64,000 bases of DNA from Macrolepiota albuminosa (lineage: Eukaryota > Basidiomycota > Agaricomycetes > Agaricales > Agaricaceae), in contig JAMWFC010000049.1 of NCBI GenBank assembly GCA_027475525.1, positions 5,998,947-6,062,946 on the forward strand. The letters are read 5' to 3'. Positions within the stretch are counted from its first letter, which is position 1; each line of letters begins with the position of its first letter. Position numbers and translations under genes: made by a program. The notes beneath the pieces were generated by a model. The model was not told the DNA's origin. It was given only the letters and a program-made list of their open reading frames with translations, and did no database searches. Shown here in pieces: positions 908-44,110 of the stretch.

Positions 908-3314
908 ATGTCTTTCCGTATTCCAACTCCGCCCCCCGTACCGTCCCGCGAGGCTCAAGACGCTGCCTCCGCCTACATCGCCAAGGCGAACAATTTCATC
1001 AAGCGCATCGAGGGTGTGGGCGCGGAGGCGCCTACAAACTTGGTTGTTGCCGTCATGCGATTACTGGAGCGTTGGTATGAGGTGCAGGTCCTTGGCGTTG
1101 GGTGGGATCGCGAGATTGAGGTGCGGGAGTGGTGCCGGGCCCGCTATGTGGATAACCGTGGCGCGGAGTGGTTAGCTCCATTTTCTCGTTTTGTAAGTGC
1201 TTTCAAGTCCTTGCCGTGTCGCCAACTGATTGGTCCCTAGGCGCCTCCTCCCGTCCCTACCATCAAGGACGAGTTGGAGGATATCTTGTCGGGTGCCTTG
1301 CCGATGACGGTAAGCGCTCCCGCGCCTGAGTAAGTAACTCTGATTTTTATCTCTAACTTAGCTGTGGTCTGACCTGTCGCCTCATAGCAAGCAAGAGGTG
1401 TTAGCGCCTCTTGCGAATTTGCAGGTGGATGCAGAGATGGCGGCCATTCGCGAGAGCATGCTGGAAGAGGCTTCCCGTGACGCCAAGGAGAGGACTAAGG
1501 CGTTGGAGGAGCGAGAGGTCGTTGGCGAGTCCCTGGTTGCTAGCGAGAAGTCGCCAGTTGCCAGGAGGCAGGTGTCTGGTGGGAAGGATTCCCACGCCGG
1601 TAGTGCCCAGAGCCCAGCACTGCCGGCAAGCACATCGGGCTCTCCGGTCAAGCCTGGCAAGACTTTAAAGAAGAAGGTAAGTTTGTGCGTTGTTACCGCT
1701 GGCGCTTATTGTTTATCCCATTCTAAGTCTCGCAAGGCTGCCGCCCCTCGTTACACGGTAAGTTTGTTACGCCAAGGTACTTTCCCTGCTAACCAACCAG
1801 TTGACAGGCGCCAACGCAAACCTCCTTTAGCGACGCAGAGCTGAAGGGTTTGTTGGTGGCAAGACGAGATGAGGCGGTTTTGGATGGAGGAATGGAGGCG
1901 GGGGTGGTCTTGCCGGAGATGAAGGACAAGAAGACGGCAAGCCCAGCGGCAAGGCGGGAGTTCAAGGACTCCCAAGGGGCGGTAAGCACTTTGGCTTTCC
2001 TTGCCGTTTTCGTTAACATTCTTGTAGTGCGACAAGTGCTGGGCCGACAACGACCCAGAGGGGTGTTGGTACCCCACTGGTGGCCAGCCCTGCTACCGGT
2101 GCGGTACGCTTAAACGGGCCTGCACTCTGGACGGCGCTAAGAGTCGCGAACGCGGTGGAGCTCCCGACGCGGTAGTGGAGCGCACTTTCAAGCGTGCCGT
2201 CCTCGTCAAAAGGGCGCGGGAGTTCGTTGAGGGGGAGAGGAAGAAGCAGGCCGCTGGCGACGCGGCGACGATTAGCAAGAGTTCCCTGGCGCTGCCGACG
2301 CGTCAAGGGGACGAGTCTGCAACAGTCGGCAACCGTGGCGCCGGAGAGCGCCAAGGGACTACGGTCCCTTCAAAACGACAAGTCCCTTCGCCCGCCAAGG
2401 GGAAGGGCAAGGCCAAACGTGCGCGGGTAGAGTCTCCTCCCTCTGCCCCTGAAGACGTGGAGATGGAGGAGCTGGAGAAGGCGCTTGCCGCCAGCCGCCT
2501 GCCGCCGAGGGACCCTGAAGCCGGGCCTAGTAAGTTGCTTTCCCCCATCCACCTGAGGGGGGTTTCTCTGCCGGCTGCCGATGAGGACGACGCGGTAATG
2601 GGTCCGCCGCCAAGAGAGGAGCCTCAAGAGGCGGGACCAATGGTGGCGATACCAAGGGGCGAAGGGAGCCCCTCGGCAATGGCTGGCGACGAGGACGCAG
2701 ATGGGGAGCCAGACGAGACCTTGGCGACCCAGCGCGAAGGTGACGAGGAGGAGGCCCCCGCCAAGGAGACGGTAGCGGGAGAAGGAGAGGGAGAAGGGGA
2801 GGCAGCGACAGGAGTTGCCCGGGAGGAGCCTGAGTGGCGTTGGCTGCCTCCCTATGGTAACACTGCCCCTTGGGAGGTATCTGACCCCGAGGATGTTGCC
2901 GGATTGGAGCCCAGGCGACCTGTCGTCGCCAGGATAAACCCTGCCTGGACTCCCCAGCCGCAGCCAACGGTCACTGGCGACGCGTTTAATTGGCTGGGGC
3001 AGGACCTCGTATATCCAGTCGTCGCGCTTAATCCGCGGGAGATGTTGGAGAGGTTTTCAAGGAGGGCGGCAACCATGGAGTCGGCAATGGAGCGGGAACA
3101 GGAACGAGTCCGGGGCCAGCTAATGGCGCTTCGCTTGCGCTATTCCAATTTGGGTTGCAGCTTGCAGGTACTGCGTGATTACCAAGCGGATTGCCAAGCC
3201 GCCCTGGACTGGCAAACCGCTAACGCCATCCTACCTGGCGACCTCTTACCCCTTCGCGATTCTTCCCTCCCACTTTCCGACGCCTCCTTGTCGATGGATG
3301 ATGTTAGCAATTAA
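908..3314 (+). CDS. Family A antisense gene, six exons, Zn2Cys6-like cluster protein (A1, intact)
   Basis: The gene lies between pol and the 3' LTR on the strand opposite to gag-pol. Exons: 908-1192, 1241-1309, 1362-1676, 1728-1757, 1808-1981 and 2028-3314. All five introns (46-52 nt) are GT-AG and phase 0, joining to about 719 codons. Exon 1 starts MSFRIPTPPPVPS. Exon 6 opens exactly on the first cysteine of CX2C-X8-C-X8-CX2C-X6-C, the cysteine order of a fungal zinc binuclear cluster with a longer first loop. A basic stretch (KRAREFVEGERKK), a Lys/Pro-rich NLS-like segment, a long Glu-rich acidic region and a conserved C-terminal part (EWRWLPPYG ... MEREQERVRGQLMALRL, likely coiled coil) follow. 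A nuclear regulatory or nucleic-acid-binding role is inference. All six cysteines are kept in A2, A3 and A4. Its 3' end faces that of pol, 433 bp away. Confidence 0.8.
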
Positions 3315-16879: not shown

Positions 16880-19099
16880 ATGTCCTTCCGTATTCCAACT
16901 CCGCCCCCAGTACCGTCCTGTGAGGCTCAAGACACTGCCTCAGCGTATATTGACAAAGCAAACCGATTTATCTGACGTATCGAGGGTGTTGGCGTGGAGG
17001 CACCTGCAAATCTGGTAGTTGGCGTGATGAAATTGTTGGAGTGGTGGTATGAGGTGCGAGTCCTTGGCGTTGGGTGGGATCGGGAGATTGAGGTGCAGGA
17101 GTGGTGCCGAGCCCGCTATGTCGACAATCGTGGCACAGAGTGGTTAGTGCCATTTTCTCGTTTTGCAAGTACTTTTAGCCTTTGCCGTGTCACTAGCTAA
17201 TTGAATTGCCAGGCGCCTCCTCTCGTCCCTACGATCGAGGACGAGTTGGAAGATATTTTGTCCGGTGCCTTGCTGATGACGGTAAGCGCGCCTGCGGCAG
17301 AGTAAGTATTCCTAACCCATTCCTTTGACTTAGCTTTGGTCTGATTTGTCGCCATATAGTAAGCAAGAGGTGTTGGCGCCTCTCGCCAACCTGCAGGTTG
17401 ATGCCGAGATGGCAGCCATTTGTGAGGAAGTGCTTGCCGAGGCGTCGCAGGATGCCCAGGAAAGACTCCAGGCGCAGGAAGGACGCGAAGCCACTGGTGA
17501 GCAGGAGGTCGTCGGCAAGGAGAAGGCGCCTGCTACAAAAAGGCAGGAGTCCACAGTCGCTGGGTCAAGCAAGGATTCCCGCGCCGATAGTGCCCAGAAC
17601 CCAGCACTGCCGGCAAGCAGCATGGGTTCCCCAGTCAAGCCGGGCAAGACTTTGAAAAAGAAGGTAAGTCTCATCCTTTCTTACCGTTGGCGACCGTTGT
17701 TGATCCTATTTCAAGTCTCGTAAGGCTGCCACCCCTTGTTACACGGTAAGTTCGTTGTGCCAAGGTACTTCCCCTGCTAACCGCCTAGTTGGCAGGCGCC
17801 AACGCAAACCTCTTTCAGCGATGCAGAGCTGAAAGGTTTGCTGGTAGCACGACGAGATGAGGCGGTTTTGGATGAGGGAATAGAAGCAGGAGTGGTCTTG
17901 CCAGAAATGAAGGATAAGAAGACGGCAAGCCCGGCGGCAAGGCGGGAGTTCAAGGACTCCCAAGGAGCGGTAAGTGCTTTAGCTCTTTTTACCGCGTCTG
18001 TTAACACTTCTGTAGTGCGACAAATGCTGGGCCGACAACGACCCAGAGGGGTGTTGGTACCCCACCGGTGGCCAGCCCTGCTACCGGTGTGGGACGCTAA
18101 AACGGGCTTGCACTTTGGATGGCGCCAAGAGTTGCAAACGCGGTGGAGCTCCCGACGCGGTAGTGGAGCGCACTTTCAAGCGTGCCGTCCTTGTCAAGAG
18201 GGCGCGGGAGTTTGTAGAGGGAGAGAAGAAGAAGCAGGCTGCTGGCAACGCAGCCTTAATCAGCAAGAGTTCCCTGGCGCTGCCGACGCGTCAAGGGGAT
18301 GAAAACAAAACAGTCGGCAATTGTGGCGCCGGAGAGCGCCAAGGGACTGCGGTCCCCTCAAAACGACAAGTCCCTTCACCTGCCAAGGGGAAGGGCAAGG
18401 CTAAATGGATGCGGGTAGAGTCTCCTCCCTCTACCCCCATTGACGTGGAGATGGAGGACTTGGAGAAGGCGCTTGCCGCCAGCCGCCTACCGCCTAGGGA
18501 TGAAGAAGCTGGGCCCAGTAAGTTGCTCTCCCCTATCCATTTAAGGGGGGCTTCTCTGCCGCTTCCTGATAAGGACAACGCGGTAATGGGTCCACCGCCA
18601 AGGGAAGAGGGACAAGAGGCGGCCCCAGCTGGTGACCAGGACACGGACGGAGAGGATGACCTGGGTGCAGGAGAGGCGGTAGCGGTAGCGGGGGGCAATG
18701 AGGATGTAGCTGCCGACAAAACGTTGGCGATGCAGCAGGAGGGTGGCAAGGAAGAGGCATCGGCAAGGGAGGTAGTAACAGAAGAGGAAGTAGCAGGAGC
18801 TGAGGGAGCGGCAGGAGTTGCCCGGGAGGAGCCTGAGTGGCGGTGGCTGCCTCCCTATGGTAACGCTGCCCCTTGGAAGGTTTCGGACCCTGAGGACGTT
18901 GCCGGGTTGGAACTGAGGCGACCTGTCATCACCAGGATAAATCCTGCCTGGACTCCCCAGCCGCAACCGACGGTCACTGGCAACGCCTTCAACTGGCTGG
19001 GGCAAGACCTCGTGTACCCGGTGGTGGCGCTCAATCCGCGGGAAATGTTGGAGAGGTTCTTGAGGAGGGCGGCAACAATGGAGTCGTCCATGGAGCGGG
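16880..19099 (+). pseudogene. A2 antisense gene, 5' part, split by B1
   Basis: Homologue of the A1 gene. Exon 1 is 16880-17164 and the last exon starts at 18016. Exon 1 carries a TGA at 16973-16975, and its donor is GC (GCAAGT), a usable minor donor. The other introns keep GT-AG. The six-cysteine cluster is complete and the exon 6 frame is open up to 19099. There B1 inserted after the codons for MESSMER; the remainder resumes at 30189. Function as for A1; now broken. Confidence 0.85.
19095..19099. repeat. B1 target-site duplication, left
   Basis: GCGGG here and GCGGG at 30189-30193 flank B1. This proves one 5-bp integration event into the A2 antisense gene. Confidence 0.95.
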
Positions 19100-19839
19100 T
19101 GTCACGACCCCTCCCCTCCGGGCCCACCCCGGGACACCCCCGGAACACCCTCCGGGACCCTCCCTCCGACCCCACAGGACACGCCCCGCCATCACGACCG
19201 CCGACACCGCCATCACGCGCATCAAGGACCGCCATCAGCCGTCACCAGCCCCGATCAACGATCAGATCACGCGACTCATGCCGGCCATCACGCATCACGC
19301 ATCACGACTCCATCCGCGCCAATTGATCACGCGCCCCACACGCGCGATCCCGGTATACAGCCCCTGCCGCTACTCAATAAACCCCGGAACCCATCCCAGA
19401 CATCCCGGAACCCCGAGACCCGGCCCCGTAGTACTTATAGTGTAGCTCCCTGTTGTATTCGGTAGTCTTGATATTGCATAACTGTTACTTTGGATATTGC
19501 GTGCCCTCTGCTTGACTGGTACGCCTTGATTGGTACGCTTCGACTGGCACGCCTTAGTATTCGCGTGCTCTAAGCTCTGGTACGCACTTCGCGACTCTTA
19601 AGTTACTAACTTGGTCTCGTCTTAGAACCTCCGGTTCACGACTTGACCCCCTCTAACCCCAGCTACCCCCGACCCAAAACCCCCGGACCCTAGTCCCCTA
19701 TCCCGGGATTACCCCTGTCCTCGTCTTGAACCCCGGAGTCCTAGCCCCAGAGTTCCAGACACCCGAGTATCCGTAGATCAAGTCCGCATCATAAGGGCGT
19801 CGCTTTCCCGGAAAGCCCCCGATTCAGCGGAACCTGACA
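19100..19839 (+). repeat. B1 5' LTR
   Basis: 740 bp, TGTCACG ... CCTGACA. About nine differences from the 3' LTR at 29449-30188, eight of them C/T or G/A changes at CpG. TATA-like TTATAG at 19436-19440; predicted transcript start at the AGTCTTGATATT motif, 19464-19475. Confidence 0.95.
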
Positions 19840-19840
19840 T

Positions 19841-19852
19841 AATATCAAGACT
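19841..19852 (+). promoter_or_regulatory. B1 self-complementary primer-binding site
   Basis: AATATCAAGACT one base after the LTR pairs perfectly over 12 nt with 19464-19475, the predicted 5' end of the element RNA. This is the arrangement known from Tf1/sushi-type self-primed retrotransposons. Confidence 0.7.
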
Positions 19853-19872
19853 CTCTCCTTACACCATTCTTG

Positions 19873-21011
19873 ATGGCTACGTATACTCACACGTACTACC
19901 CCACCGGGTACCAGACCGACCCTTACGGACGCCCGGTACCCGACCACTACTCCGCGCAGACCCCCCGCCCCGTCTACCCACCTCTCCCGTACGAACCTCC
20001 ATACCTCCACCGCCACTGGGCCCCCGACCCGTCCCTCTACGACCTGGGGCCCTCAGCCAGCTGGGCCCCTCCGCCCAATTTAGCCATGGCGCGACCCGTG
20101 GAGGTCCCCTCGTACCGGAGCATCCCCGGGGGCCTGCCGGAGACCCCACCTGTACCCAGTGGACCTCGCCCGATTCCCCCCAGCGAGGGCCCCTTTGCAC
20201 CCACCCCCTACTACGGTTATCAGCGCCCTGTCTCCCAACCCCGAGAACCCCGAGGACCCCCCTACCCCGACTACCCCCTTCGTCAGTACCCGGCCGCCAC
20301 CCCACCCGCTCGAACCCCTACCTCGCCAATGGGACGACGACGCCTCAAGGAGTATGAACGGCAACGGGACGAGGTACTCCGCTCCCTCAGGATCTCGCCA
20401 GAGAACTTCGCGCAACGGACAAGGACGCTGCTCGTGGAATTCGGACACGACAACTTTGAAGGCACTCCGGAGGAATGGGCTCACTGCCTGGTCGAATTCG
20501 GGGATCGCCTCATGCGGGGAGAACTCCCAGAGCAAACCATGGTAAAGTATAGGCGTAATACAATCCTCCGGGAAGAATTACAGCAGCTGCTCAACGAAGT
20601 CCACGCGTCCCCCTCCCCTCGGCCCCTCAACGCCCCGCGGATCCAGGTCGCTCAATTCACATTCGACGGGAACCCCTGGAACCGGCCCCAGCAGTCCCGG
20701 CAGCCCCCACGGTCCCCACTCCGGAACAACAACAACGGGAAGAACGGCAGAACGCCTCAGCCATATTACGGTCCCTCAACCCGGCTGGAGGCCTCTTCGA
20801 TCAACCCGCGGCCCGCACGGTAGGCTTGTCAACTCGCCGCAGGGCTAACTCCGTCCCTAGTACCTTCGAGACCTGGGGACAGCCCCAAAGACCCCTGGAA
20901 CCCCTCCCGCGAACAGACAACGCCCGACCCCCGCGGCGAACCCCGGCAGACCCCGTGCGGACACCCCTAGCACGGACGACACGCTGTGCTACATCGACGA
21001 GCTTACGCGTG
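19873..21011 (+). pseudogene. gag: B1 gag, 5' part, split by solo LTR
   Basis: Starts MATYTHTYYPTGYQ as B0 does, with the same Tyr/Pro-rich N-terminus and charged helical region. A 1-nt deletion near 20632 (B0 AACGACCCC, here AACGCCCC) shifts the frame. The solo LTR interrupts the rest at 21012. Confidence 0.85.
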
Positions 21012-21749
21012 TGTCACGACCCCTCCCCTCCGGGCCCACCCCGGGACACCCCCGGAACACCCTCCGGGACCCTCCCTCCGACCCCACAGGACACGCCCCG
21101 CCATCACGACCGCCAACACCGCCATCACGCGCATCAAGGACCGCCATCAGCCGCCCCCAGCCCCGATCAACGATCAGATCACGCGACTCGTGCCGGCCAT
21201 CACGCATCACGCATCACGGCTCCATCCGCGCCAATTGATCGCGCACCCCACACGCGCGATCCCGGTATACAGCCCCTGCCGCTACTCAATGACCCCCGGA
21301 ACCCATCCCAGACATCCCGGAACCCCGAGACCCGGTCCCGTAGTACTTATAGCGTAGTCCCTTGTTGTATTCGCTAGTCTGGATATTGCATAACTGTTAC
21401 TTGGATATTGCGTGCCCTCTGTTTGACTGGTACGCCTCGTTTGGTACGCTTCGACTGGCACGCCTTAGTATTCGCGTGCTATAAGTTTGGTACGCACTTC
21501 GCGACTCTTAAGTTACTAACTTGGTCTCGTCTTAGAACCTCCGGTTCACGACTCGACCCCCTCTAACTCCCAGCCACTCTCATCCAAAACCCCCGGACTC
21601 TAGTCCCCTCTCCCGGGATTACCCCTGTCCTCGTCTTGAACCCCGGAGTCCTAGCCCCGGAGTTCCAGACACCCGAGTATCCGTAGATCAAGTCCGCATC
21701 GTAAGGGCGTCGCTTTCCCGGAAAGCCCCCGATTCAGCGGAACCTGACA
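21012..21749 (+). mobile_element. Solo LTR, family B, inside B1 gag
   Basis: 738 bp full LTR flanked by GCGTG (21007-21011 and 21750-21754). It therefore integrated as a full element and collapsed by LTR-LTR recombination. Its start-site motif has one mismatch (AGTCTGGATATT). Confidence 0.92.
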
Positions 21750-23331
21750 GCGTGGCAACAACGAACCACGTCCCACGCCCGCGCCCATCCTGGTACCGCC
21801 CCCTACGTCAGCCCCGGTCCCTCCGGAACGCAACTTCCGCCGCGATCCGCCACCCCACTTCGACCTACGGAACCCCCCGCGACCCCTGATGCAAGCCCGA
21901 CCCTCCCGGATTGAACGTCCCCCGCGCAACCCGGCACCCGACCCAGCACCTAACCCCCCTCCGCCCGACCCGACACCGCCGAACCCTCCCCGACCGCCTC
22001 CGCCACCCCCAGCTGAACCTTGAGGACGACCCCCAGGCCCTCCACCTCCGCCACTCCCTGCGTGGAGACCCGGGCCCCCTCCTGGCAGGAACGAACCCCC
22101 TTGGGACAACGGGCCTCCCGGGCGTGGACCCCCAGGTGAGCCACCCGGAGGAGGACCTCCCGGCGGGTGGGGCCCCGCTCTTGGTGCTTTTCCTCCTCAA
22201 GGAGGGGGGGGTAATCATTACTACTACTATTACAACGCTGGCCCCCCTCCCCGTAACGCTGCCGGACCGGACGACGCTCGCGACGCCCTCGCCCGCGAAG
22301 GACGACTGGACATCCAAAAGCCCAACGCTTTCACGGGCCGGGACCCCCGAAAATGGCGTACCTTCCTCACTCAGTGTCTCAATACATTCCAGGCAAAGCC
22401 GCTCACATTTCAGGTTGACAGCTCCCAGGTGGCCTTTGCCGCATCATACCTCCAGGGGATCGCCTTCGATCACTACACGGCCCTCATCCAGTTCGACTCC
22501 AACAATCCGGCACTCGCTCGCTGGCAGGCCTTCGTCGACGAGTTCTCCGGGAAGTTCGGAATCTACGACACCGTGGCCGAGGCCGAGGACAACCTCTTCA
22601 ATCTCCGGATGCGCTCGGAAGAACGTTTCACCACCTTTATCGTACGTTTTGAGAAGGAAGCTTACAAAACAGGTTGGAACTACAGCGCCCTCCGGTACGC
22701 CCTCCGCCGTGCCCTGCCACAACGCATCAAGGACGTCCTCCGACTCGCCCCGAAACAACCCTCCTACGACGGATACAAGGCCCTCATCATGCAGATCGAC
22801 CAACGCTACTGGGAAGACCGCAGCGAGTATTCGAATTCCCGACCCCCCTGGAACCCTAGAGGAGGACCCCCTTGGCCCTCCGGCAAAACTCCCAACCCCC
22901 AAGGTCGAAACCCCGGTCCCCCCGCGTTCCCTGGCGGCCGACCCCCGGTGAGTCGCGGCCCGCCCAATGCTAACCCCGGCAGCGGCACCCGCCCCCAGGC
23001 CCAACTCAACGCCGCCGTGGCCGCCCACGACCCGGGCGACGTGCCAAGCCCCGAGGAACCCCCGGAAGACCCCGAAGACTTCGACTTTGACGACGAGCGG
23101 GACGAGGAGGCCCTCCAAGCCAACCGGCTTCAAAAGAAGGGACGACCCTGGATCAAGGTCCCGATGGATGTGCAGGAACGACGGAGAAGGGAGGGTGTCT
23201 GCATACTCTGTGGTGAGAAAGATCATTTCATCTCCGAGTGCCCCAAACGACAGGTCATGGGACGTGCCACCTGGACCTTCGAAGGGGAGGACGCCACCTA
23301 CGAGTATTCGGAAAACGACCCGGCGATTTAG
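21750..23331 (+). pseudogene. gag: B1 gag, 3' part
   Basis: Continues the gag after the solo LTR: Pro/Gly-rich stretch, Tyr run, then the capsid-like domain and an intact zinc knuckle [15 protein letters not shown] (CX2CX4HX4C). A TGA at 22021-22023 replaces the CGA seen in B0. The frame ends [10 protein letters not shown] at 23331 and overlaps pol by 94 nt. Confidence 0.85.
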
Positions 23332-26300
23332 ACCCGGAAGACGCCCTAAATCGCGGAATCGACCCTGACGTCTTCTCCGCCCTGGTCTCACATCTTCGCT
23401 CTACGACGCTCATACAGGACACCCTCACGGCTTACCTACCCTCCCACTCTTTGCACTCCCTCCTCCTCAAAACCCGCCTCACCCCCTCCAGAACTCCCCT
23501 CAACACCCTCGTCGACAGCGGTGCCACCGACAACTTCATCGACGAAGCATGGTCTACCCTCACCCCGGAACCCGCCCAGCGACTCCCGGTCCCGGTACGA
23601 CTCTGCCTCTTCGACGGCAACGCCTCTACGGCGGGGAACATCACTCATTTTGTGCGTATGCCCATTACCTTCGCCAACGGACAGACTCACACCCTCCGGA
23701 TGTTGATAACCAAACTCCACCCTTCCGCACCCCTGGTCCTAGGGCTCCCGTGGCTCCGGGACACTAACCCCCGCATTGATTGGCGACACCTCACCCTTCG
23801 CCTGACCCGGGACCCGACCCCCGACGACCAGCAACTCCCCTTCGACATCCCCCACTCCCCCAACCCTGCCCCGAAGGACGGGCCTCCACCACCCCCCGGA
23901 CTCCAGTCCCGTTCATCCCGATCCTTCGTCATCAATGCCAGGCTGGACGGCGCCCCAGGACCAGTCTCGGCCCTCATCGACAGCGGAGCCACCGGAGTAT
24001 TCATCAGCGACGCTCTCGACCTCCCCCACGACTCCCTCGACCAGCCCCTCCGCCTGCAACGCCTCGATGGCACCCCCTCCTCCTCCGGCCCCATCCAAAG
24101 GTCTCACTTGGGACGCGTGACCCTGGACAACAACTATGAGTTCACTTCCGACTTCCTGGTCACGCGACTTCACGAATCGACCCCGATGGTGCTGGGACTA
24201 CCCTGGCTGCGCGACACGAACCCCGACATCGACTGGAGGACGCTCACCATGACCTTCCCGGGACCCGAAGACCACCCCTCGACCGCCGTGCACCTCCGGG
24301 CTCTAGGAAGCGACCCGACGCCCGACACCCCCGGAACGACTGCCGCGCCTCCCACACCCATCCGAGACCGCAAGGCCCCCGATCGACCCCCAAACATTCC
24401 TCGGAACAAGTACAAGGGGCCGAACTACCCCTGCCGGTCTCAGACACGCGTCACACCCGCTCCGGCCGATGATTCCGCAACACCGATCGACCCGAGCGCA
24501 CTCGACATTAGGATCATTGGGGCCGCCCCCTTCGCCCGCCTCATGAGGGATGGGACTCCCACGTTTCAGCTGCACACCTCGCCTTCTCTCCCGGAAGAAC
24601 ACCTACGAGGGAACACTATTCCCCCGGAACAGAAAACCGAGGAGCAAATCCTCCGAGAAGTAGTTCCCCCGGAGTATCACGAGTTCGCTGACGTATTCTC
24701 CGAAGGAGACGCCAAGGAGATCCCCCCTCACCGCCCCTATGATCACACCATCGACCTCAAGGAAGGAGCCACCCCCCCTTTCGGCAAGGTCTACAACATG
24801 TCAGAGGTCGAACTCCGGGCTCTCAAGGACTACCTCGACGAAATGCTTGGTAAGGGATTCATCCGACCCTCCGCCTCCGCCGCCGGAGCCCCGGTTCTAT
24901 TCGCCAAGAAGAAGGACGGCTTGCTCCGACTCTGTGTCGACTACCGGGGACTCAATAAGATCACCAAGAAGAACCGCTACCCGCTCCCGCTCATTGGCGA
25001 TCTGGTCGATCAACTCCGCAGTGCCAAGGTTTATACAAAGATCGACCTCCGCTCCGGTTACAACAACGTCCGCATCGCCCCGGGACATGAGTGGAAAACT
25101 GCGTTCCGCACGCGGTATGGTCTGTTTGAGTACCTTGTAATGCCTTTTGGAATAACTAACTCCCCCGCCACGTTCCAATACTTCATGAACGACATCTTCC
25201 ACGACATGAGCAACGTCTTCGTGATAGTCTACCTGGACGACATACTCATCTACTCCGACTCGCCGGAGGATCACCAGAAGCACGTCCGGCAGGTCCTCGA
25301 ACGCCTCCGGGAACACAACCTCCACGCCAAGCCCGAGAAGTGTTCATTCCATACCGAAGAGGTTGAGTATCTTGGCGTCATAGTATCCCCGAATGGCGTC
25401 CGCATGGATCCCCACAAGGTCGAGGCCATCGTCAACTGGCCGCAACCCCGGAACGTCAAGGAAGTACAATCTTTCCTGGGTTTCGCTAATTTCTACCGGA
25501 GGTTCATAGATAACTACTCCGGTATCACAAAACCTCTCAACCGGCTCACGCGCAAGGACGTCGCCTGGAACTGGGACAGTAAGTGCCAGAGCGTCTTTAA
25601 CCTGCTCAAGGAGGCTTTCACAGCTGCCCCCGTCCTCCGGCACTACGACCCGGCCCTCCCGATTATCCTGGAATGCGACGCCTCCGACTACGCCATCGCC
25701 GGGATTCTCTCGCAGATGGAACCTGACGGCGGGGAGCCCCGGCCAGTCGCCTTCTACACCCGGTCCATGATCGACGCCGAGCTCAATTACGACATCTACG
25801 ACAAGGAGCTCCTCGCCATCGTCGAAGCCTTCAAACAATGGCGAGCCTACCTCGAGGGAGCCCGGCATCGGATTCAGGTCTACTCGGATCATAACAACCT
25901 GCAGTACTTCACCACTACCAAGCAACTGAGTCGACGGCAGGCCCGATGGTCCGAGATCCTCTCAGAATACGACTTCACGATTCAGTACCGCCCGGGACGA
26001 CTTGGCGCCAAGCCTGATGCCCTCACCCATCGACCGGACGTCTACCCCAAGAAGTCATTCGAGGCGGAACGCAATGCGTTCAATCATCACGTGGTGATCC
26101 CTCCCAAACATCTGAATGCCGTACTGATCTTAAATGACAAAGGAACCCTGAACCAGATCCGCCGTGCTCCCCGAGACAAGTTTTTCACTGATCACGACCC
26201 CCGAAACTCTTCCGACGAAACCGACCGGGACCCCGCCTTCTCATTGTCCCCCGACGGAAAACTCCTCCTCCGGGACGGCCGCATCTATGTCCCGGATCAC

Positions 26301-27614
26301 GCCCGACTCCGCTACAATGTCCTCCGTCAGCACCATGATCATAAGCTCCGAGGGCATCCTGGGATACGTAAGACTCTCCAGCTGATCTCCCAGACTTACT
26401 TTTGGCCAGGGTTGAAGAAGGACGTGACCCGCTACATTCGATCATGTGAACCCTGCCTCCGGGCCAAGGTCCCCCGACACCGACCATACGGACTCCTGAA
26501 ACCCCTGCCAGTCGGACGACGCCCCTGGTCCTCCATATCCCTGGACCACATCGTCAAACTCCCGGAGTCTGAAGGGTTCGATGCCATTCTCGTCGTTGTG
26601 TGCAGGCTAACCAAACAGGGCATCTTCCTACCCTGCCACACCACGGACACCGCCCCGGACTTCGCCCGGCTGTTCCTCGAGCACGTCTTCGCCAAACATG
26701 GACTCCCGGACAACATCGTCTCCGACCGTGGCCCTCTCTTCATGTCCAAGTTTTGGACTTCCCTGTGTAAGGCACTTGAAGTAAAGACTAACCTCTCTAC
26801 CGCCTACCACCCCGAAACCAACGGCCAAACCAAAAGGGTCAACCAGTCCCTTGAGCAGTACCTCCGGCTGTACGTCAACTACTTACAGGACGACTGGCGC
26901 GCCGAGCTCCCCCTGGCCGAGTTCACCTACAACAACACGCCGCACTCTGCCACCGGGGTATCACCCTTCTTTGCCAACAAGGGATACCACCCTCGACTGA
27001 CGCTCTCGCTCCGGGACATCCCATCGCACGCCGCCCACGAGGTCGCCCGGGATCTCCAATCCCTTCACGAGTTCCTCCGGGAAGAGATCGACACCGCAAA
27101 CCGGGCCTACGTGAAACACGCCGACCGGAAACGGGAAGACACCCCCGACTGGGCCCCCGGGACAAAGGTATGGTTAGATCGGCGACATCTCCGCACCCGC
27201 CGGCCCTCCCCAAAACTCGATCACAAGCGTCTCGGCCCGTTCAAAATATTGAAGAAGGTCTCATCCCACGCCTACAAGATTGAGCTCCCCCCGGGACTAA
27301 AAGGTCTGCACCCGGTATTCCACGTCCGCCTCCTGGAACGACACCCCCCGGATCCCTTCCCTGAACGACGCCCCGAGCCCCCTCCCCCGGTCGAGGTCGA
27401 GGACGAGTACCACTACGAGGTTGAAGACATCCTCGACTCCCGGAACATTCGTGGACGACCCCACTTCCTCGTATGATGGAAGGGATACGGCCCGGAAGAC
27501 GACACTTGGGAACCGCGCCGAAACCTCAAAGGCGCCCTCGACAAACTCCGGAACTTTCAACAACGGCACCCGGGAAACGACCTCTCCGGGCGCAGAACTC
27601 ACAGACGGCAGTAG
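23238..27614 (+). pseudogene. pol: B1 pol: tandem proteases, RT, RNase H, integrase, chromodomain
   Basis: Open for 1412 codons. Two retropepsin-like units have catalytic Asp at residues 93 and 248 (both DSGAT); each ends near a [12 protein letters not shown] motif. RT has YLDD at residues 665-668. RNase H runs from [14 protein letters not shown] to [12 protein letters not shown]. The integrase has an HHCC segment, Asp1103 (SLDH) and Asp1163 (SDRG), but Lys1199 where DD35E requires Glu ([10 protein letters not shown]3 has Glu). The C-terminus is a chromodomain ([12 protein letters not shown] ... [13 protein letters not shown]) broken by TGA at 27474-27476; B3 has CGA there. After that TGA the frame runs on to a TAG at 27612. 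This is the most complete chromovirus pol here. Frame is -1 to gag, so a frameshifted Gag-Pol is likely. Confidence 0.92.
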
Positions 27615-27892
27615 TGGGCGTAACCCCCGCCTCTGGGCTCAGTAGGGATTCAACTCCCATGTATATTTTCTGCTTTCCCTTTCTAGATCTTACTCTCTTT
27701 TAGTACTTTCTTTTACAGTAGCGCCCCGGACTCTGGGCAAGGTACCCTTTCCCGTTTCCCCGCCACTTTACTTACACCATTCTCTACGAGATCAGTCAGG
27801 TATATACATTTTTCTACTGTTACATATACTACAGGATTTGGGACCTCAAAAAAAAAAAAAACAACAGTACCAAGAAACATACGAGGGGGCCC
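27615..27892. other. Convergent 3' region of B1
   Basis: Noncoding stretch between pol and the convergent antisense gene, T- and C-rich, with an A-run near 27848-27861. It presumably holds both 3' UTRs. Confidence 0.5.
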
Positions 27893-29321
27893 TTAGAGCG
27901 AGGGCCCTGAACCGCCTTCCCCACCTTCCCCGCCCCCTCCCCTCGGCCAGCCCCAGAACTCTTCCCCCACCCCCTCCGGACCGTGTTCCCGCCACACCTC
28001 CTCGGCCAGTTGGTCCCACGACGGGAGCTGCTCGCCCTCGTCCAGGACCCGCTCGAACCAGGATCCTGGAGCAGGCACGTTCCTCCGCCGATGCGCGGCC
28101 ACCAGCCGCCCCAGGAGATCGAGGCCACGCTCCACCCCGGGGGTCGTCACCTCAGGACGCTGCCCCTCCTGTAGCGAGGCCAGCGCCGCGGCTGCCCCAT
28201 CCAGGAGCAGACGGTGCTCCTGGGCCCAGCCTGAAGATGTCAGCAGAAGGAGAGATCCGGCGACAGAGGACTCACTTAGAGACGCCATACGCGCGACCAC
28301 CAGATCGCGGCGCAAACCCTCCATCACCTCCTGCCCCGAGGGGGCCCTCTCCGGGATCCCCACTCCCTGCCCCAACCTCGCCCGCAACGCCTCCAGCTCT
28401 GCCACCGCCTCCTCCCGAGCAACCCGGGCCTCCTCCAGCTGCCGAAGCGCCTCCCGGCCCGCCTCCAACTCCCTCTGCACGTCGGTCCCCTCGGACTCCC
28501 CCGGGCGCTCCAGCAGGACCCTCACGTCCGCCCCCAGGGGCCGCCCCAACAGAGGCGAGAACACTGCCGGGGAGAGACGCGGGGGGGAAGCCGGGGGCGG
28601 GGTCCCAGAGGGCAAACGCGCCCTCTTAGAGGGCCCCGGGGAGGGGCTAGGCGACGCCCGCCTCTTCCCCTTGTCGGGGCGCCTCCCACGACCCTCGTGA
28701 CCCCCGGTCCCGGCCCGGGTCGCCCGACGCGTGATCAGGACCACGGGCCGGCCCCGGCCCCCCACCCGAACGACCCCCTGGCCCCTCGACCCCCCACTGG
28801 CCGCCCCTGCGGGCGCCGCGGACACATCTCCCACCGACTCCGCCGTCTCCACCGCCGGCTCCACTACCCAGTCCCGCTCCTCGACCCCCATCCTCCGGGT
28901 AACCCCGCCCAGTGGCCACCCCTGCTCCCGCGCGACGCAGCGCGCCCTCCACAGCGCCGACACAGAACATCGTTTGTGGTTGAGGCGACACGCCTCGCAC
29001 ACAGATGTGTCCCGGCGGGACGAAGGAGTCGGGGCCTCAAACGTGCACGTCACCAGCCGGCGGGCACAGTGCAGGCACTACGGCGCCCCAGGAGCCGACT
29101 AGGACCCGCCTCCGGGGCAGGGACGTTGTGTTGTTCTGAAAGGGGAAGGTCAGTAGCGGTAAGCGACCGGCACGGGGACACTTACGCTGTTGAGTAAGCG
29201 CCGCTATGCGCTCCCGATCTAGGCGGCGCCGGTACCGCGCATCCCGGGCCTCCCAGGCCATCAGGGGCGCAACCTCGTTGGTTTGCGGGGGCGTCAGGGA
29301 ATGCGTTGGCGTACGCGACAT
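27893..29321 (-). pseudogene. Family B antisense gene, six-cysteine cluster protein (B1, exon deletion)
   Basis: On the strand opposite to B1 gag-pol, between pol and the 3' LTR. Exon 1 is 29321-29186 (MSRTPTHSLTPPQTNE), followed by a 50-nt GT-AG intron (29185-29136). The next exon is mostly lost: relative to B3 about 290 bp are missing around 29085. The large exon starts at 29077 exactly on a cysteine after TAG and encodes C-X2-C-X6-C-X15-C-X2-C-X6-C, the cysteine spacing of a Zn(II)2Cys6 cluster. It then runs to 27893: Arg/Ser/Pro-rich basic region (KGKRRASPSPSPGPSKRAR, NLS-like), Arg/Glu/Ala-rich coiled coil, then WFERVLDEGEQLPSWDQL. A likely 45-nt in-frame intron precedes GWAQEHRLLL. No sequence similarity to the family A gene is evident outside the cysteine spacing. 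A regulatory role is inferred. Confidence 0.7.
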
Positions 29322-29435
29322 GGTTGAACTTGACGATAAAATTTTTTTCGATACGTAGCAGGTCAGGTGCCGGATCCCATGGTTGACCCCCGGTCCGAAC
29401 CACCGGCTACGTGCGCCTCGGAGGGTCTCGGCGCT

Positions 29436-29448
29436 GAGGGGGGGGTGA
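29436..29448 (+). promoter_or_regulatory. B1 polypurine tract
   Basis: GAGGGGGGGGTGA directly before the 3' LTR start TGTCACG. It confirms plus orientation. Confidence 0.85.
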
Positions 29449-30188
29449 TGTCACGACCCCTCCCCTCCGGGCCCACCCTGGGACACCCCCGGAACACCCT
29501 CCGGGACCCTCCCTCCGACCCCACAGGACACGCCCTGCCATCACGACCGCCGACACCACCATCACGCGCATCAAGGACCGCCATCAGCCGTCACCAGCCC
29601 CGATCAACGATCAGATCACGCGACTCATGCCGGCCATCACGCATCACGCATCACGACTCCATCCGCGCCAATTGATCGCGCGCCCCACACGCGCGATCCC
29701 GGTATACAGCCCCTGCCGCTACTCAATAAACCCCGGAACCCATCCCAGACATCCCGGAACCCCGAGACCCGGCCCCGTAGTACTTATAGTGTAGCTCCCT
29801 GTTGTATTCGGTAGTCTTGATATTGCATAACTGTTACTTTGGATATTGCGTGCCCTCTGCTTGACTGGTACGCCTTGATTGGTACGCTTCGACTGGCACG
29901 CCTTAGTATTCGCGTGCTCTAAGCTCTGGTACGCACTTCGCGACTCTTAAGTTACTAACTTGGTTTCGTCTTAGAACCTCCGGTTCACGACTCGACCCCC
30001 TCTAACCCCAGCTACCCCCGACCCAAAACCCCCGGACCCTAGTCCCCTATCCCGGGATTACCCCTGTCCTCGTCTTGAACCCCGGAGTCCTAGCCCCGGA
30101 GTTCCAGACACCCGAGTATCCGTAGATCAAGTCCGCATCGTAAGGGCGTCGCTTTCCCAGAAAGCCCCCGATTCAGCGGAACCTGACA
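29449..30188 (+). repeat. B1 3' LTR
   Basis: 740 bp, partner of 19100-19839, followed by the GCGGG duplication. It carries the same start-site motif at 29813-29824. Confidence 0.95.
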
Positions 30189-30411
30189 GCGGGAGCGGGA
30201 ACGAGTCTGGGGTCAACTGATGGCACTGCGCTTGCGCTACTCCAACCTGGGCCGTAGTCTTCACGTCCTGCGCGACTATCAAGCGGATTGCCAAGCTGCT
30301 CTGGACTGGCAAGCCGCCAACAACATCTTGCTGGGCGACCTCCTTCCTTTGCGTGACTCCTCTTTGCCAGTGTCGGATAACTCCTTGCCAATGGACGATG
30401 AGAGTGATTGA
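30189..30411 (+). pseudogene. A2 antisense gene, 3' end after B1
   Basis: Resumes the interrupted gene (GCGGG duplicated) with RERVWGQLMALRLRYSNLGR ... MDDESD and ends in TGA at 30411. This C-terminal coiled-coil-like part is conserved among all A copies. Confidence 0.85.
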
Positions 30412-36419: not shown

Positions 36420-37184
36420 TGTCAGGTTCCGCTGAGTCAGGGGCTTTCCAGGAAAGCAACGCCCTTACAATGCGGACTTGACCTACGAATACTCGGGTGT
36501 CTGGAACTCCGGGGCTAGGGCTCTGGGGTTCAAGACGGGGACAGGGGCAATCCCAGGAGAGGGGACTAAGTCCGGGGGTTTTGGGTTGAGAGAAGCTGAG
36601 GGTTGGAAGGGGGTCGAGTCGTGAACCGGAGGTTCTAAGATGAGACCAAGTTAGTAACTTAAGAATTGCGAAGTGCGTACCAAACTTAGAGCACACAAAT
36701 ACTCAGGCGTGCCAGTCGAAGCGTACCAATCAAGGCGTACCAGTCAAGCAAGAGGGCACACAATAACCAAAGTAATATCAAGACTAGCGAATACAACGGA
36801 GAACTATGCTATAAGTACTACGGGACTGTGTCTTGGGATTCCGGGGTGTCTGGGATGAGCTCCGGGGGTCATTGAGTAGCGGGCAGGGACTGTATACCTG
36901 GATCGCAGGAGTGGGGATGTGCGATCAATTGGCGCAGAGGGAGCAGTGATGCGTAATGCGTGATGGCTGGGGGTGAGTCGCATGATCCGATCGCTGATGG
37001 CAGGGGGTCCCGGGGTCCGTGAGGCGGGGTTCCGGGGGGGGTTGGCTGATGGCGGTCCCTGATGCGCGTGATGGCGGCGTCGGTGGCTGTGGGAGCGGGG
37101 CGTGCTGTGGGGTCGGTGAAAGAGGTTTCCGGATGGGGCTCCGGGGATGTCCCGGGCAGGTTCCGGAGGGGAGGGGTCGTGACA
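36420..37184 (-). repeat. B3 3' LTR
   Basis: 765 bp, complement of TGTCACG ... CCTGACA. Start-site word at 36785-36774. The insertion splits the Helitron helicase; the left flank is GGCCT (36415-36419). Confidence 0.93.
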
Positions 37185-37197
37185 TCACCCCCCTCTC
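37185..37197 (-). promoter_or_regulatory. B3 polypurine tract
   Basis: Complement of GAGAGGGGGGTGA, next to the 3' LTR as in B1. Confidence 0.8.
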
Positions 37198-37308
37198 AGC
37201 GCCGAGACCCTCCGAGGCACGTGTAGTCAGGGGTTCGGACCGGGGAGCATGGGATCCGGCGCCTGTTGTACCATGTAACGAAAAAAATTTTACCATCAAC
37301 TTTAACTA

Positions 37309-39060
37309 TGTCGCGTACACCGACGCATTCCCCGACGCCCCCGCAGACTAACGAGGTCACGCCCCTTATGGCGTGGGGAGACCGGGACGCGCGCTATTGA
37401 GCTTGTCATGACTGGGAGCGCGTGGCGGCGCTCGCCCAACAACGTCAGTGTTCCCGCATTGTCCGCTCACCCCACTAACCTTCCTTTTTTAGAACAACGC
37501 AACACTCTGCCCTGGAGGCGGGCCCCAGCCGGATCCTGGAGCCTGCTCCCGATGCAGGCCCCAGTGCCTCTCCAGGGTCCCACCCTAGTCGTCCCACGCC
37601 CACCTTTGCGCGGATGATGGTCCGCCACCCCCGTCCACAGCCCCCTGTTTCCATCGCTTCGGGATGGTGATAGGGGCCGTGTCAGAGGTCCCAGAGGATC
37701 AGCGCGTTGTGTGGGCAGCCGTGATGCAGGAGTTGTTTGGGGAGGCTCTGGAGAGGCGCCAGGGTCTACCCGCCCATGCCTGGTGTGTGAGTAACGGACC
37801 GGTAAGTGGCCCTCTAGCCCTGGTCTTCCTTGCTGACTTTGGCGCAGTGCAAGCACTGCGCCTGACAGATGGTCCCTTGTTTATTTGAGGCCCCGAGCCC
37901 CTCGTCCTGCTGGGACACGTCTGTGTGCGAGGCCTGCCGCCTCAACCATGAGCGGTGTTCCGTGTCAGCGCCGTGGAGGGCACGTTGCGTCTCCTGGGAG
38001 CAGGGGTGGCCGCTGGGGGGAATCACCCAGAGGATGGGAGTCAAGGAGCAGGACTGGGTGGTGGAGCCGGTGGGGGAGGGGGTGGGGCCGGTGGGGGAGG
38101 GGGCAGGTCCGGTGGGGGAAACGCCCGCGACGTCCGCGGGGACGTCCAGTGGAGAGTCGTCCGGGTGGGGGGCTGGGGCCGGCCCGTGGTCCTCATTACT
38201 CGTCGGGTGACCCGGGCCGGGACTGGGAGTCACGAGGGTCGAGGGGGGCGCCTGGACAAAGGGAAGAGGCAGGCATCGCCCAGTCCCTCCCCGGGGCCCT
38301 CCAAGAGGGCGCGTCTGCCCACGGAGACCCCGTCCCCAGCTTCCCCAGTGCGTCTCTCCCCAGTGACATTTTCTCCACTGTCGGGACGACCGCTGGACGT
38401 CGAGGTGAGGATCCTGCAGGAGCGCCTCGAGCAGGCCGACTGGGAGCGGGAGGAGCGAGAGGAGGGGGCAAGGGAGGATGCGGCGATCTGGAGGGGGCTG
38501 GAGGAGGGCCGTGAGACTGCCCTCTGGGAGCTGGAGGAGCCAAGGCTCAGCTGGACGCGATGAGGGCCAGGCTCGAGCAGGGGGTGGGGCTCCCGGGGCA
38601 GGGTGCCTTGCGCCAGGACATGGTCATCGGGTGTATGGCCTCCCTGAGTGAGTGTCCTTCTTTTCTCGTGGTTGGGTCGATACTGATATTTCCAGGCTGG
38701 GCTCGGGAGCATTGCCTGCTCCTAGACGAGGCTGCCGCGGCGTTTGCGTCCCTGCAAGAGGGGCTATGGTTGGAGGTAGGGAACTCCAGGGTGGAGCGGG
38801 GTCTGGACTTGTTGGGGAGGCTGGTGGTGGCGCATCGCCAAAGAAACGTCCCGGCCCTGGGTTCGTGGTTCGAGCGGGTCCTGGATGAGGGCGAGCAGCT
38901 CCCGTCTTGGGACCAGCTGGCCGAGGAGGTCTGGCGGGAACATGGTCCGGAGGGGGTGGGGGAGGAGTTCCGGGGTTGGCCGAGGGGAGGGGAGGGTGAG
39001 GGTAGCTCGGGGCCCCCATTTTCTTGCAGGTTGCTTGTCTCGTGGTTCGTAGCTCCGTAG
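37309..39060 (+). pseudogene. Family B antisense gene (B3, degenerate, with exon 2)
   Basis: Same gene as in B1, on the strand opposite to the B3 pol. Exon 1 starts at ATG 37309 (MSRTPTHSPTPPQTNE) and has an in-frame TGA after RDARY. Exon 2 (about 37492-37800), missing in B1, is retained, with a GTAAGT donor near 37803. The cysteine exon starts at 37848 and shows CX2C (CKHC), then a TGA at 37863-37865, then Cys ... CEACRLNHERC; five of the six positions are directly readable and the sixth follows the TGA. Later indels break the Pro/Arg region. The C-terminal part (SWFERVLDEGEQLPSWDQL) is conserved with B1. A 5' splice site at ...SLS|GTGAGT near 38643 supports the last intron. Confidence 0.65.
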
Positions 39061-40602: not shown

Positions 40603-41536
40603 TGATGACGCCCAAAGTTTGGTCAGTAACAAATGTAGGTATAGTGTTACCGTACCAATTGCTTGCGTTGGGTGCGCTAAAGTAATGAGGGAGTCCTGGG
40701 CAGGTTCCAGAGAACGCGCCTGTGAAAAAGATGAAAAGTCGGTAACGGGTGTCGGCAAGTGTAAAGCGCTAAGGTACAGCGCCTATGAAGAAGCGGTAAG
40801 TGAGCACGGCAAGATGAGTGGCAAGAACGCGGTAAGCTTAGCGAGGTCTAAGCGTCGATAGTGCCTGCCGTAGCTGCAAGGCGCGAATAAGTCGAAGGTT
40901 GGCGATAGTCTGCAACTGCCAATAGGTTCGATGTTGCCGACCATAAACGAAATCTTGAGCGTAAGGGAGACTGAAGAAGTGGGAGCAGGAAACTCTGGTC
41001 TATTCTGCTGATGATTGTACAAGTCGGTAAGTACTTTTATACTACAAAGAGTTCGCCGTCGCCAGTGGCCAAAGAGCGGTAAACTAGAAAATTTTATGAG
41101 GGGTAGCTCCAACTGTTTCAGATCCCTGCCGTCCATTCAAGACCCTTAGCGGCGTCAGGCGGCAAATCGCGATGCTAAACCATCAATCCATCCTTCTTCT
41201 GTCTATCAACATATCTAAACGGTGTCAGGCGCCAAATTGGTAGTGCTAAGCGATGTCAGCCGCCAAGGTCAAACGCCAAGCTGTCTGTCGGTTTTTGACA
41301 GATCATCAATCTTCTCGCTAAGTGCTGTCGTCAGTGACTGATGCCATCTGTCAGTTGTCATTCCTGCTGCCGTTGGCGCTATCATTGATCGGATCTGCTT
41401 CTTGCCGTGTCCAGCTGTTGGGAATTGCTTAAAATAGGTAGAACGCGTGCGCTAAGTTTGGGATGAGTGTGGCAAGGTTTCCGGAGCCGGTGCCGAGCCT
41501 GCTGTTGATGCGCCTAACCTGTATAGGGTCCTATCA
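40603..41536 (-). repeat. A3 3' LTR
   Basis: 934 bp family A LTR; partner at 61340-62272. Confidence 0.94.
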
Positions 41537-41704: not shown

Positions 41705-44110
41705 ATGTCTTTCCGCATTCCAACTCCGCCCCCTGTTCCCTCCCGTGAGGCTCAAGACGCCGCCTCTGCTTATATTGAAAAGGCGAATCACTTTATCAGG
41801 CGCATCGAGGGTGTTGGCATGGAGGCGCCTGCAAATTTGGTAGTTGGCGTGATGAAATTGTTGGAGCGGTGGTATGAGATGCGAGTCCTTGGCGTTGGGT
41901 GGGATCGGGAGATTGAAGTGCAGGAGTGGTGCCGGGCACGGTACGTCGACAATCGTGGCGCGGAGTGGTTAGCGCCCTTCTCCCGTTTCATAAGTTGCTT
42001 TTGTTGCCTGCCATGTCGCTTAGCTGATTGCTCTCTAGGTGCCTCCTCCCGTCCCTACGATCAAGGACAAGTTGGAGGATATCTTGTCAGGTGCCTTGCC
42101 GATGACGGTAAGCGCACCTGCGGCAGAGTGAGTATTCCTAACCCATTCCTTTGACCTTAGCTTTGGTCTGACTTGTCGCCTCGTAGTAAACAGGAGGTGC
42201 TTGCGCCCTTGGCACGGATGCAGGTGGAGGAGGAACTCGCTACCGCCGCCTCTCGTGACGCCAAGGAGATTACAAGGGCGCTAGAAGAGTGGGCACGTGC
42301 GCAGGCATTGGCAGAGGAGATGGAGGAGATTGACCGTGGGAGGGCGCCAGTTGCCAAAGAACAGAGCAAGGTTTCGCACGCCGGCAGTGCACAGAGCCCA
42401 GCACTGCCGGCTAGCAGGAAGGGCTCCCCAGTAAAGCCGGGTAAGGCTTTGAAAAAAGTGAGTTTTGGCCTATTCTTGCCGCTGCCGTGCCACGCTAACC
42501 ACTGTTTCCAAGTCTTGCAAGGGAAAGGCTCCCCAGTATGCGGTAAGTATTCTTTTTGGACCTAGGTGGTGTTTACCAACCTATGCCTGCAGGCGCCAAC
42601 GCAAAGTTTCTTCGACGACAAGGAGCTGAAAGGCTTGCTTTTGCCACGTCGGGAGGAGGCCGTCCTTGACAAGGGGCAGGAGGCCGGGGTTGTAATGGAG
42701 GAGATGAAGGGGAAGAAGACTGTTTCCCTGGCGACCTGGCAGGCCTTTAAGGAGGCGCGAGGAGCGGTAAGTGACTTTTCCATCTTTTAAGCTCTCGCTG
42801 ACTTGTAGCACTAGTGTGACAAGTGCTGGGCGGATAACGACCCAGAAGGCTGCTGGTTCCCGACTGGGGCCCAGCCTTGCTATCGCTGTGGTGCCCTCAA
42901 GTGCGCTTGCACCATCGACGGGGCCAAAAGTCGCGAGCGTGGCGGCGCGCCAGACGCACTTGTTGAGAAGACATTTTCGGGCGCTGTTTTGGTGAGAAGG
43001 GCCAGGGAGTTTGTGGAGGGCCAAAAGAGGAAGGTTGCCGCCGGAGAAATGGCAGCCATTGGACATACCTCCTTAGCGTTGCCGACGCGCCAAGGAGATG
43101 GGTCAGAAACAGTCGGCAATCGAGGCGCTGGAGAGCGCCAAGGGACTTCGGTCCCAGAAAAACGACCAGCCCCTTCCCCAAGCAAGGGGAAGGGCAAAGC
43201 AAAGCGCCCTCATGTGGTTTCGTCGTCGCCTTCCCCCTCGCCAGTGCCAAAGGACACCGAAATGGAGGACCTGGAGAAGGCGTTGGCGGCTAGTCGCCTC
43301 CCGCCTCGTGACACAGAGGCTGGCCCCAGCAGTCTTTTGTCGCCCATTCACTTGGCGGCAAGGTCTCTTGGCAGGGAGCAGGAGGAGGGAGAGCGGGAGG
43401 CGCCTCAAGAGGAGCGGGAAGACGCTCCCGCAGATGTCAAGATGGAGGTGGAGGAGAAGGCAGAGGGGGCGGCAACAGGAGGGGATGAAGACGCCGAGGG
43501 TGAAGAAGAGACCCTGGCGATGCAACAGGAAGGCGACAAGGTGGTGGCAGGCAAAGGGCAGGGAGCGGCAGAAGAGGTGGTAGAGGGCGAGGGGGCGGTA
43601 GCTGCAGGAGTGGCCAGGGAGGAGCCTGAGTGGCGCTGGCTGCCTCCCTACAGTAGCGTTGCCCCTTGGGAGGTTTCAGACCCCAAGGACATTGCCGGAC
43701 TGGAGCCTAGACGCCCCGTGGTTGCCAGGGTCAATCCCGCGTGGACCCCCCAGCCGCAGCCAATGGTCACAGGCGACGCTTTCAACTGGCTGGGACAAGA
43801 CCTTGTGTACCTGGTGGTGGCGCTTAACCCACGGGAGATGCTGGAGAGGTTTTTGAGGAGGGCGGCAACGATGGAGTCGTCCATGGAGCGGGAGTGGGAA
43901 CGAGTCCGGGGTCAACTGATGGCGCTGCACTTGTGCTACTCCAACCTGGGCCGTAGTCTTCACGTCCTGCGCGACTACCAAGCGGATTGCCAAGCTGCTA
44001 TGGATTGGCAGACCGCCAACAATATCTTGCTGGGCGACCTGCTTCCTCTTCGCGACTTGTTGTTGCCAATTTCTGACAATTCTCTGCCCATGGACGATGA
44101 CAGTGATTAA
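41705..44110 (+). pseudogene. Family A antisense gene (A3, one donor lost)
   Basis: Same six-exon gene as A1. Exon 1 (41705-41989) is open, but its donor is AT instead of GT (41990-41991), so intron 1 may not be removed. The other introns keep GT-AG ends. Exon 6 (42815-44110) is open to a TAA and keeps the cluster CDKC-X8-C-X8-CYRC-X6-C. The Glu-rich middle region differs in length from A1 while the cysteine cluster and the C-terminal segment (EWRWLPPYS ... MALHLCYSNLGRSLHVLRDYQ) are close. The pattern of change, free in the acidic linker and tight at both folded-looking ends, argues for past selection on the protein. Confidence 0.75.

Follow-up and report, generated by a model that had tools for sequence, protein, structure and literature searches.

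Two unrelated LTR retrotransposon families of a basidiomycete each carry an intron-containing antisense cysteine-cluster gene between pol and the 3' LTR

Accessory genes on the antisense strand of LTR retrotransposons have long been known, and the accessible parts of the accounts describe no demonstrated job for them (PMC7264820, PMC11963269). In plants, antisense open reading frames between pol and the 3' LTR (aORF-3R) include gene23 of Grande, that of RIRE2 and TRP28 of Retand; they occur in most copies of a family and are suspected of a nuclear or DNA-related role (PMC7264820, PMC11963269). The fungal element Boty of Botrytis cinerea carries the antisense gene brtn between pol and the 3' LTR (PMC7264820, PMC8365987). 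HBZ of HTLV-1 and the APH genes of HTLV-2, HTLV-3 and HTLV-4 are spliced antisense genes near the 3' LTR whose products are nuclear regulators of the sense promoter (PMC10186651). Bdelloid LTR elements have extra ORFs common to different retroelements and regarded as exchanged (PMC5408684). Searches of one open-access library listed no report of a cysteine-cluster antisense gene for basidiomycete or Termitomyces elements. Antisense genes at the pol-3' LTR site are thus already known from plants, Boty and HTLV; new here are the protein type, its presence in two unrelated families of one genome, and exchange of the gene as a module within families.

The genes described here are like plant aORF-3R in slot and strand. 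Unlike here, other protein types are found in the plant elements (TRP28, SMC and others), the accessible parts of the plant reports mention neither a cysteine cluster nor an intron (PMC7264820, PMC11963269), and the present case concerns two unrelated families of one fungus, with exchange within families. Boty, as far as the accessible descriptions go, likewise combines a fungal LTR element with an antisense gene in the pol-3' LTR slot, although its host is an ascomycete and brtn was likened by description rather than by sequence. The HTLV products are bZIP or other retroviral proteins for which regulation has been shown, whereas for the present genes we infer it; in common with HBZ is the place of an antisense gene near the 3' LTR, and splicing of its putative transcript is predicted from intron signals that gene copies conserve in genomic sequence. 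The extra proteins of bdelloid elements (the ORF3 types env, DEDDy, GDSL, CC and TM, in the accessible description) are again different ones, and exchange in families A and B was seen within each family.

The window, the whole 64,000-nucleotide stretch of Macrolepiota albuminosa DNA that was analysed, was found by self-comparison to be a stack of nested LTR elements. Element B1 (19100-30188, plus strand; LTRs at 19100-19839 and 29449-30188) represents family B, which self-comparison and Pfam domains identified as Ty3/Gypsy, with protease, RT, RNase H and integrase in that order between the LTRs; its pol spans 23238-27476 on the plus strand. The host site of the B1 insertion is itself an A element. 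The insertion broke the antisense gene of A2, whose cysteine exon occupies 18016-19099 on the plus strand and whose far-end homology resumes at 30188-30387, so that one element with an antisense gene has come to interrupt the antisense gene that belongs to the other family. Within the 5' part of B1, a solo family-B LTR at 21012-21752 indicates that the family also inserted into itself. Element B3, whose 3' LTR is at 36420-37189, lies on the minus strand; element A3 breaks it at 40603. In family A the protease is encoded by its own ORF upstream of the RT ORF, and the pol proteins of the two families share 24% identity over 422 columns around the RT. The window self-comparison returned no match of at least 200 nt at E 1e-20 between A and B LTRs, and the claim that the families differ in LTR and protease layout is borne out; they differ in pol as well.

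For B1 and B3, the earlier note had proposed a spliced antisense gene between pol and the 3' LTR whose cysteine cluster starts at an exon boundary. The motif C-X2-C-X6-C-X15-C-X2-C-X6-C was located at 28967-29077 on the minus strand in B1 and at 37848-37958 on the plus strand in B3, and the pattern C..C.{6}C.{3,30}C..C.{6}C fitted only those two sites in a six-frame scan of the window. Both clusters begin right after an AG, have pol on one side and the 3' LTR on the other, and read against the direction of pol, confirming motif, slot and strand. Copies elsewhere in the genome gave a gene of four exons. Exon 1 (136 nt) starts with ATG (MSRTPTHS..) and is followed by a phase 1 intron of 49-51 nt in 9 of 11 copies, the nine in which the start was found. 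In 18 of 19 distinct copies whose Cys exon is open, intron 2 (44-48 nt, GT..AG, phase 0) gives way directly to the first Cys codon, in agreement with the proposed boundary, and the sole exception is B1 of the window. Intron 3 is 45 or 48 nt long, always a multiple of three, in all 19. The six-cysteine motif is clean and its spacing fixed in 31 of 33 B copies inspected, and 23 of the 33 have an open model, meaning no stop from the Cys exon to the stop codon; among 22 copies with an open Cys exon, four are interrupted by a stop in the final 60 codons of exon 2.

All parts of the B1 gene lie on the minus strand. Exon 1 (29186-29321, 136 nt) opens with the ATG at 29321, roughly 130 nt away from the 3' LTR; a remnant of exon 2 and intron 2 (29078-29135) precedes exon 3 (28276-29077), which encodes the cysteine cluster, a basic region and a coiled-coil helix. 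Intron 3 (28231-28275, 45 nt, GTGAGT..CAG) is free of in-frame stops and is followed by exon 4 with the stop codon (27893-28230). Missing from B1 are about 300 bp present in B3 (37543-37842), namely the greater part of exon 2 together with intron 2, of which only the final bases survive and whose donor is gone. The B3 gene (37308-39060, plus strand) retains exon 2 and intron 2 and has decayed, being frameshifted and carrying a stop inside its cluster. Both elements thus carry the cluster in the expected slot, but as damaged copies. Intron 3 of B1 is open in frame, and its retention would yield a second, slightly longer protein.

Family A had been said to carry an antisense six-cysteine gene at the same place. 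In the window, the A1 gene (908-3314, plus strand) has its ATG at 908 and its cysteine exon at 2028-3314; the cysteine exon of A3 (42815-44110, plus strand) is open, and that of A4 (57319-58626, minus strand) has a stop in the cluster. The A cluster likewise begins where a phase-0 intron ends, at the first Cys codon, but its spacing is C-X2-C-X8-C-X8-C-X2-C-X6-C in 31 of 32 copies and is unlike that of B. In the seven A copies compared, a TATA-like TTTATAG stands some 75 nt upstream of the start codon and may be an internal antisense promoter. The contrast between a conserved pol and a divergent antisense gene, described below for copies within each family, is larger still in a distant relative of A: its pol C-terminal part is 88-89% identical to A1 in two main pieces and 67-81% in two short end pieces, whereas its antisense pieces are 39-43% identical, with pol and antisense gene on opposite strands.

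A search of the window's own genome (100.1 Mb, 129 contigs) found at least 126 B-like and at least 102 A-like stretches; these counts are lower bounds because only the best candidates were scored, and in some cases several matches belong to a single gene. Free of stops were 85 of the 102 A matches and 79 of the 126 B matches, with intron 3 of B read as coding. In 50 loci taken with 1.5 kb of flank at either end, the gene always had an LTR of its family beside it (20/20 B, 30/30 A), and pol was found on the opposite strand within 1.5 kb in 49 (19/20 B, 30/30 A), which is the arrangement that characterizes aORF-3R, between pol and the 3' LTR and opposite to pol. One further B-like cysteine gene (locus L067, G000:C27:392300-397300), with 38-45% identity to B1 and to the Termitomyces protein P0001, lies in another multi-copy repeat family; the 5 kb examined there contained no A- or B-type pol and no match to A or B LTRs.

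Relatives were also found among Termitomyces proteins, the source of all 25 matches to the A protein and of 70 of the 71 matches to the B profile, the remaining one bearing no name. These matches suggest a host in Termitomyces or near it. The motif is kept in 32 of the 71 Termitomyces-type B matches, always with the linker of 15 residues (32/32). Protein P0001 of Termitomyces strain T112 matches B in exon 2, in the Cys exon and in exon 4, beyond which it runs on as antisense of the pol 3' end, a tail that inflates the scores of the B profile search. Of the 71 matches, three were not matched by BLASTP when compared with the first sequence; among them is P0093, an ordinary pol protein read in the sense direction. 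Seven of the 71 run into antisense pol, five from strain T112 and two from Mn162, and the layout therefore occurs beyond this genome. The annotated proteins P0001, P0027-P0030, P0034 and P0046 span antisense gene plus antisense pol and are probably gene-model artefacts in public records. Two scans for relatives in viral contigs confirmed none. The gene is, in sum, not unique to the window copies but present in many copies across the genome and in Termitomyces proteins.

In both families the antisense strand is protein-coding and under purifying selection; of the two outcomes that the earlier note had set against its view, a gene confined to these copies and a lack of such selection, neither came about. 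Ratios of sums computed with NG86 put dN/dS at 0.11 in the last exon of A (325 pairs from 26 distinct copies), at 0.27 in B exon 3 (171 pairs from 19 copies) and at 0.18 in B exon 4 (153 pairs from 18 copies), and the share of pairs with dN/dS above 1 was 0.00 to two decimals among pairs with dS above 0.05. The B copies in this comparison had been picked because a splice model left their exon 3 open; they number 23 of the 33, and 19 of them are distinct. Pol of the same loci gave ratios of sums of 0.128 (A) and 0.267 (B) and medians of 0.071 and 0.171, pol distances being inflated in places because some segments are frameshifted (e.g. L016); the antisense gene is conserved like other element proteins. 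Gene and pol do not overlap in B1, so the low dN/dS is not a shadow of constraint on pol. Divergence at codon positions 1/2/3 was 0.07/0.05/0.25 in A, 0.16/0.15/0.31 in B exon 3 and 0.14/0.12/0.35 in B exon 4. Gaps were in frame in 17 of 17 cases in B exon 3, partly by force of choosing copies with an open exon 3, versus 12 of 38 in the flank, and in 8 of 10 cases in the last exon of A. Masking CpG-type changes had little effect on the dN/dS ratios of medians, which went from 0.116 to 0.105 (A), from 0.265 to 0.261 (B exon 3) and from 0.178 to 0.181 (B exon 4). Such changes made up 14-17% of antisense and 16-26% of pol differences, as if copies decay at methylated CpG. Families A and B, then, each carry an intron-containing coding accessory gene that runs from the 3'-LTR side towards pol, in many copies and under purifying selection; selection in both families, together with occurrence beyond the window copies, supports the view of a general strategy rather than an accident.

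Whether the two genes share an origin is a matter apart from their function. Slot, strand and a phase-0 intron ending at the first Cys codon are common to A and B, as is the order of six cysteines, basic region and long helix. These features fit very old common descent and convergence alike. Descent from one ancestral antisense gene, diverged beyond recognition, has in our judgement a chance a little short of even: the likeness in slot, strand, intron phase and position and domain order speaks for it, while the cysteine spacing differs and sequence homology is undetectable, BLASTP between A and B giving only E 0.012 on a basic, proline-rich stretch and profile-profile comparison (hhalign) non-significant probabilities of 1.0% and 2.1%.

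The classical fungal Zn(2)-Cys(6) motif is C-X2-C-X6-C-X5-12-C-X2-C-X6-8-C. The B protein resembles this type (PF00172) in having C-X2-C-X6-C twice, weak Zn_clus matches, a basic stretch that is invariant in 10 of 10 members, and a long helix. Its linker of 15 lies outside the classical spacing, as does the second spacing of 8 in A. Nine of 10 B-type members matched Zn_clus at E 5 or better, B1 scoring 9 bits against a cut-off of 21, and in a larger B set 23 of 49 matched at E 1 or better, the best at 0.002; none of 12 A-type members matched a zinc cluster in Pfam at E 5. Raw exons matched no Pfam family, and a PDB profile search gave no convincing relative (B at E 0.28 or worse, A none). Structure models placed a confident long helix towards the C-terminal side (B exon 3 about 201-230, A 341-400) and modelled the cysteine regions at low confidence (pLDDT about 50 in B, 35-46 in A). 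On the strength of the weak Zn_clus match, the helix and the basic stretch we call the protein zinc-cluster-like and do not file it as a member of PF00172.

Judging from motif and models, the protein most likely works like a zinc-cluster regulator of its element. A fuller prediction, drawn by analogy and to our minds evenly balanced, is that of a zinc-cluster-like regulator at work in the nucleus. The gene would be driven by an antisense promoter lying within the 3' LTR or beside it; the putative protein would enter the nucleus, dimerise by its helix and bind element DNA, most simply the LTR; and, once bound, it would tune the transcription of the element or its copy number, the part that HBZ plays in HTLV-1. 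Fast divergence and reshuffling of the gene may then be a response to changing LTR targets, host factors or rival elements. In favour of this prediction are the many copies and their constant layout, purifying selection, conserved introns and cysteines, the weak Zn_clus resemblance, basic stretch and helices, the conflict between trees, and the precedent of HBZ and APH. Against it count the lack of a Zn_clus match in A and of a PDB relative, the low-confidence models of the cysteine regions, the weak coupling of LTR and cysteine-exon distances, the damage to both B copies of the window and the stops in exon 2 of some other B copies. The same anatomy would also fit a protein that aids the replication cycle otherwise, as a chaperone, in nuclear import or in tethering of the pre-integration complex, its cysteine cluster binding RNA or protein; such roles have been proposed for plant antisense ORFs too, in the part of that account available (PMC7264820). 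We hold this to be rather unlikely, since antisense expression would uncouple the protein from gag-pol and the weak resemblance of B is to a DNA-binding domain.

That the gene is a captured host gene, a passenger of no use to the element, appears improbable. Its introns resemble those of a host gene, B resembles a fungal host domain, and at L067 a B-like gene sits in another repeat family with no pol in the 2.2 kb after it, but constraint extends across many diverged copies of both families and no match, judged by label, belonged to a known host family. Still less probable, to the point of being remote, is that the antisense transcript is the agent, through RNA silencing or copy-number control, with an incidental reading frame: antisense control RNAs of retroelements do exist, micropia and others being described in the accessible text (PMC7264820), yet dN/dS is well below 1, third positions show an excess of change, and cysteines and introns are fixed in both families. 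An RNA role may exist in addition to the protein. Least credible by far is a sense-strand gene, for instance an env-like ORF, with the antisense frame as its shadow, for although the B1 gene is overlapped by two sense ORFs (263 and 166 aa), the most variable positions, third ones in the antisense frame, would be second and first codon positions of those ORFs and the Termitomyces proteins match the antisense frame. A sense-strand gene, an RNA-only role and a chance motif were rejected as main explanations on dN/dS, third positions, the Termitomyces antisense-frame matches and the motif scan.

Within each family the antisense gene recombines with pol among copies, and in B also internally. Mean synonymous distance was 0.56 in B antisense exon 3 versus 0.25 in pol of the same 113 pairs, and 0.45 versus 0.28 in A (273 pairs). 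Single pairs departed in either direction: L010-L052 had 0.73 in the antisense gene and 0.11 in pol, L013-L015 had 0.004 and 0.19, and the A pair L038-L044 had 0.08 and 0.24. Median identity among 17 aligned B copies was 89% on the LTR side, 84% in exon 1, 74% in exon 2, 78% in exon 3, 79% in exon 4, 80% in the 3' flank and 92% in pol, and the identities of pol and exon 3 were uncorrelated (Spearman -0.02). Some copies are mosaics: L010 and L056 agree at 99-100% in exons 1 and 2, at 84% in exon 3 and at 77% in exon 4, and L007 and L054 at 100% in exon 2 and 74% in exon 4. Antisense and pol trees rejected each other in both families, with AU p values, also fed by recombination inside the gene, of 6e-55 and 2e-4 in B (11 copies, after leaving out L012, L014, L016 and those with less than 300 aa of pol) and of 5e-39 and 6e-5 in A (17 copies, after leaving out those with less than 340 aa of pol). 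Pairwise distances in 12 of the 17 aligned B copies (L001, L016, L020, L051 and L058 left out) fell into three blocks, one of exons 1-2 plus the cysteine and middle parts of exon 3, a second of the exon 3 end plus exon 4, and a third of pol. In the same 12 copies, coupling between LTR and cysteine-exon distance was weak for one LTR half (Spearman 0.38, Mantel p 0.03, among several tests), and the other half gave a Spearman of 0.12 (p 0.22). The earlier note had raised the exchange of a module between the two families. Exchange is seen inside each family, in the AU tests and the mosaic B copies; as for A and B, their proteins lack detectable homology, and no A-type gene beside a B-type pol, or the reverse, occurred among the fetched loci.

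Many open and diverged copies, a motif of metal-binding type and clear selection make these families a tractable case for the function of antisense genes, and the pairing of a conserved pol with a variable, reshuffled antisense gene offers the testable idea of a regulator exchanged as a module. More tentatively, and with more doubt than confidence, we suggest that the pol-3' LTR slot may be an exchangeable specificity cassette, in which elements with almost the same pol carry strongly divergent, internally reshuffled zinc-cluster-like proteins, the cysteine and coiled-coil halves move as separate modules, and a regulator particular to each lineage is kept diverse. If so, each lineage would make its own regulator for self-recognition, copy-number control or target control, and the diversity of the cassette would be kept much like that of recognition loci.
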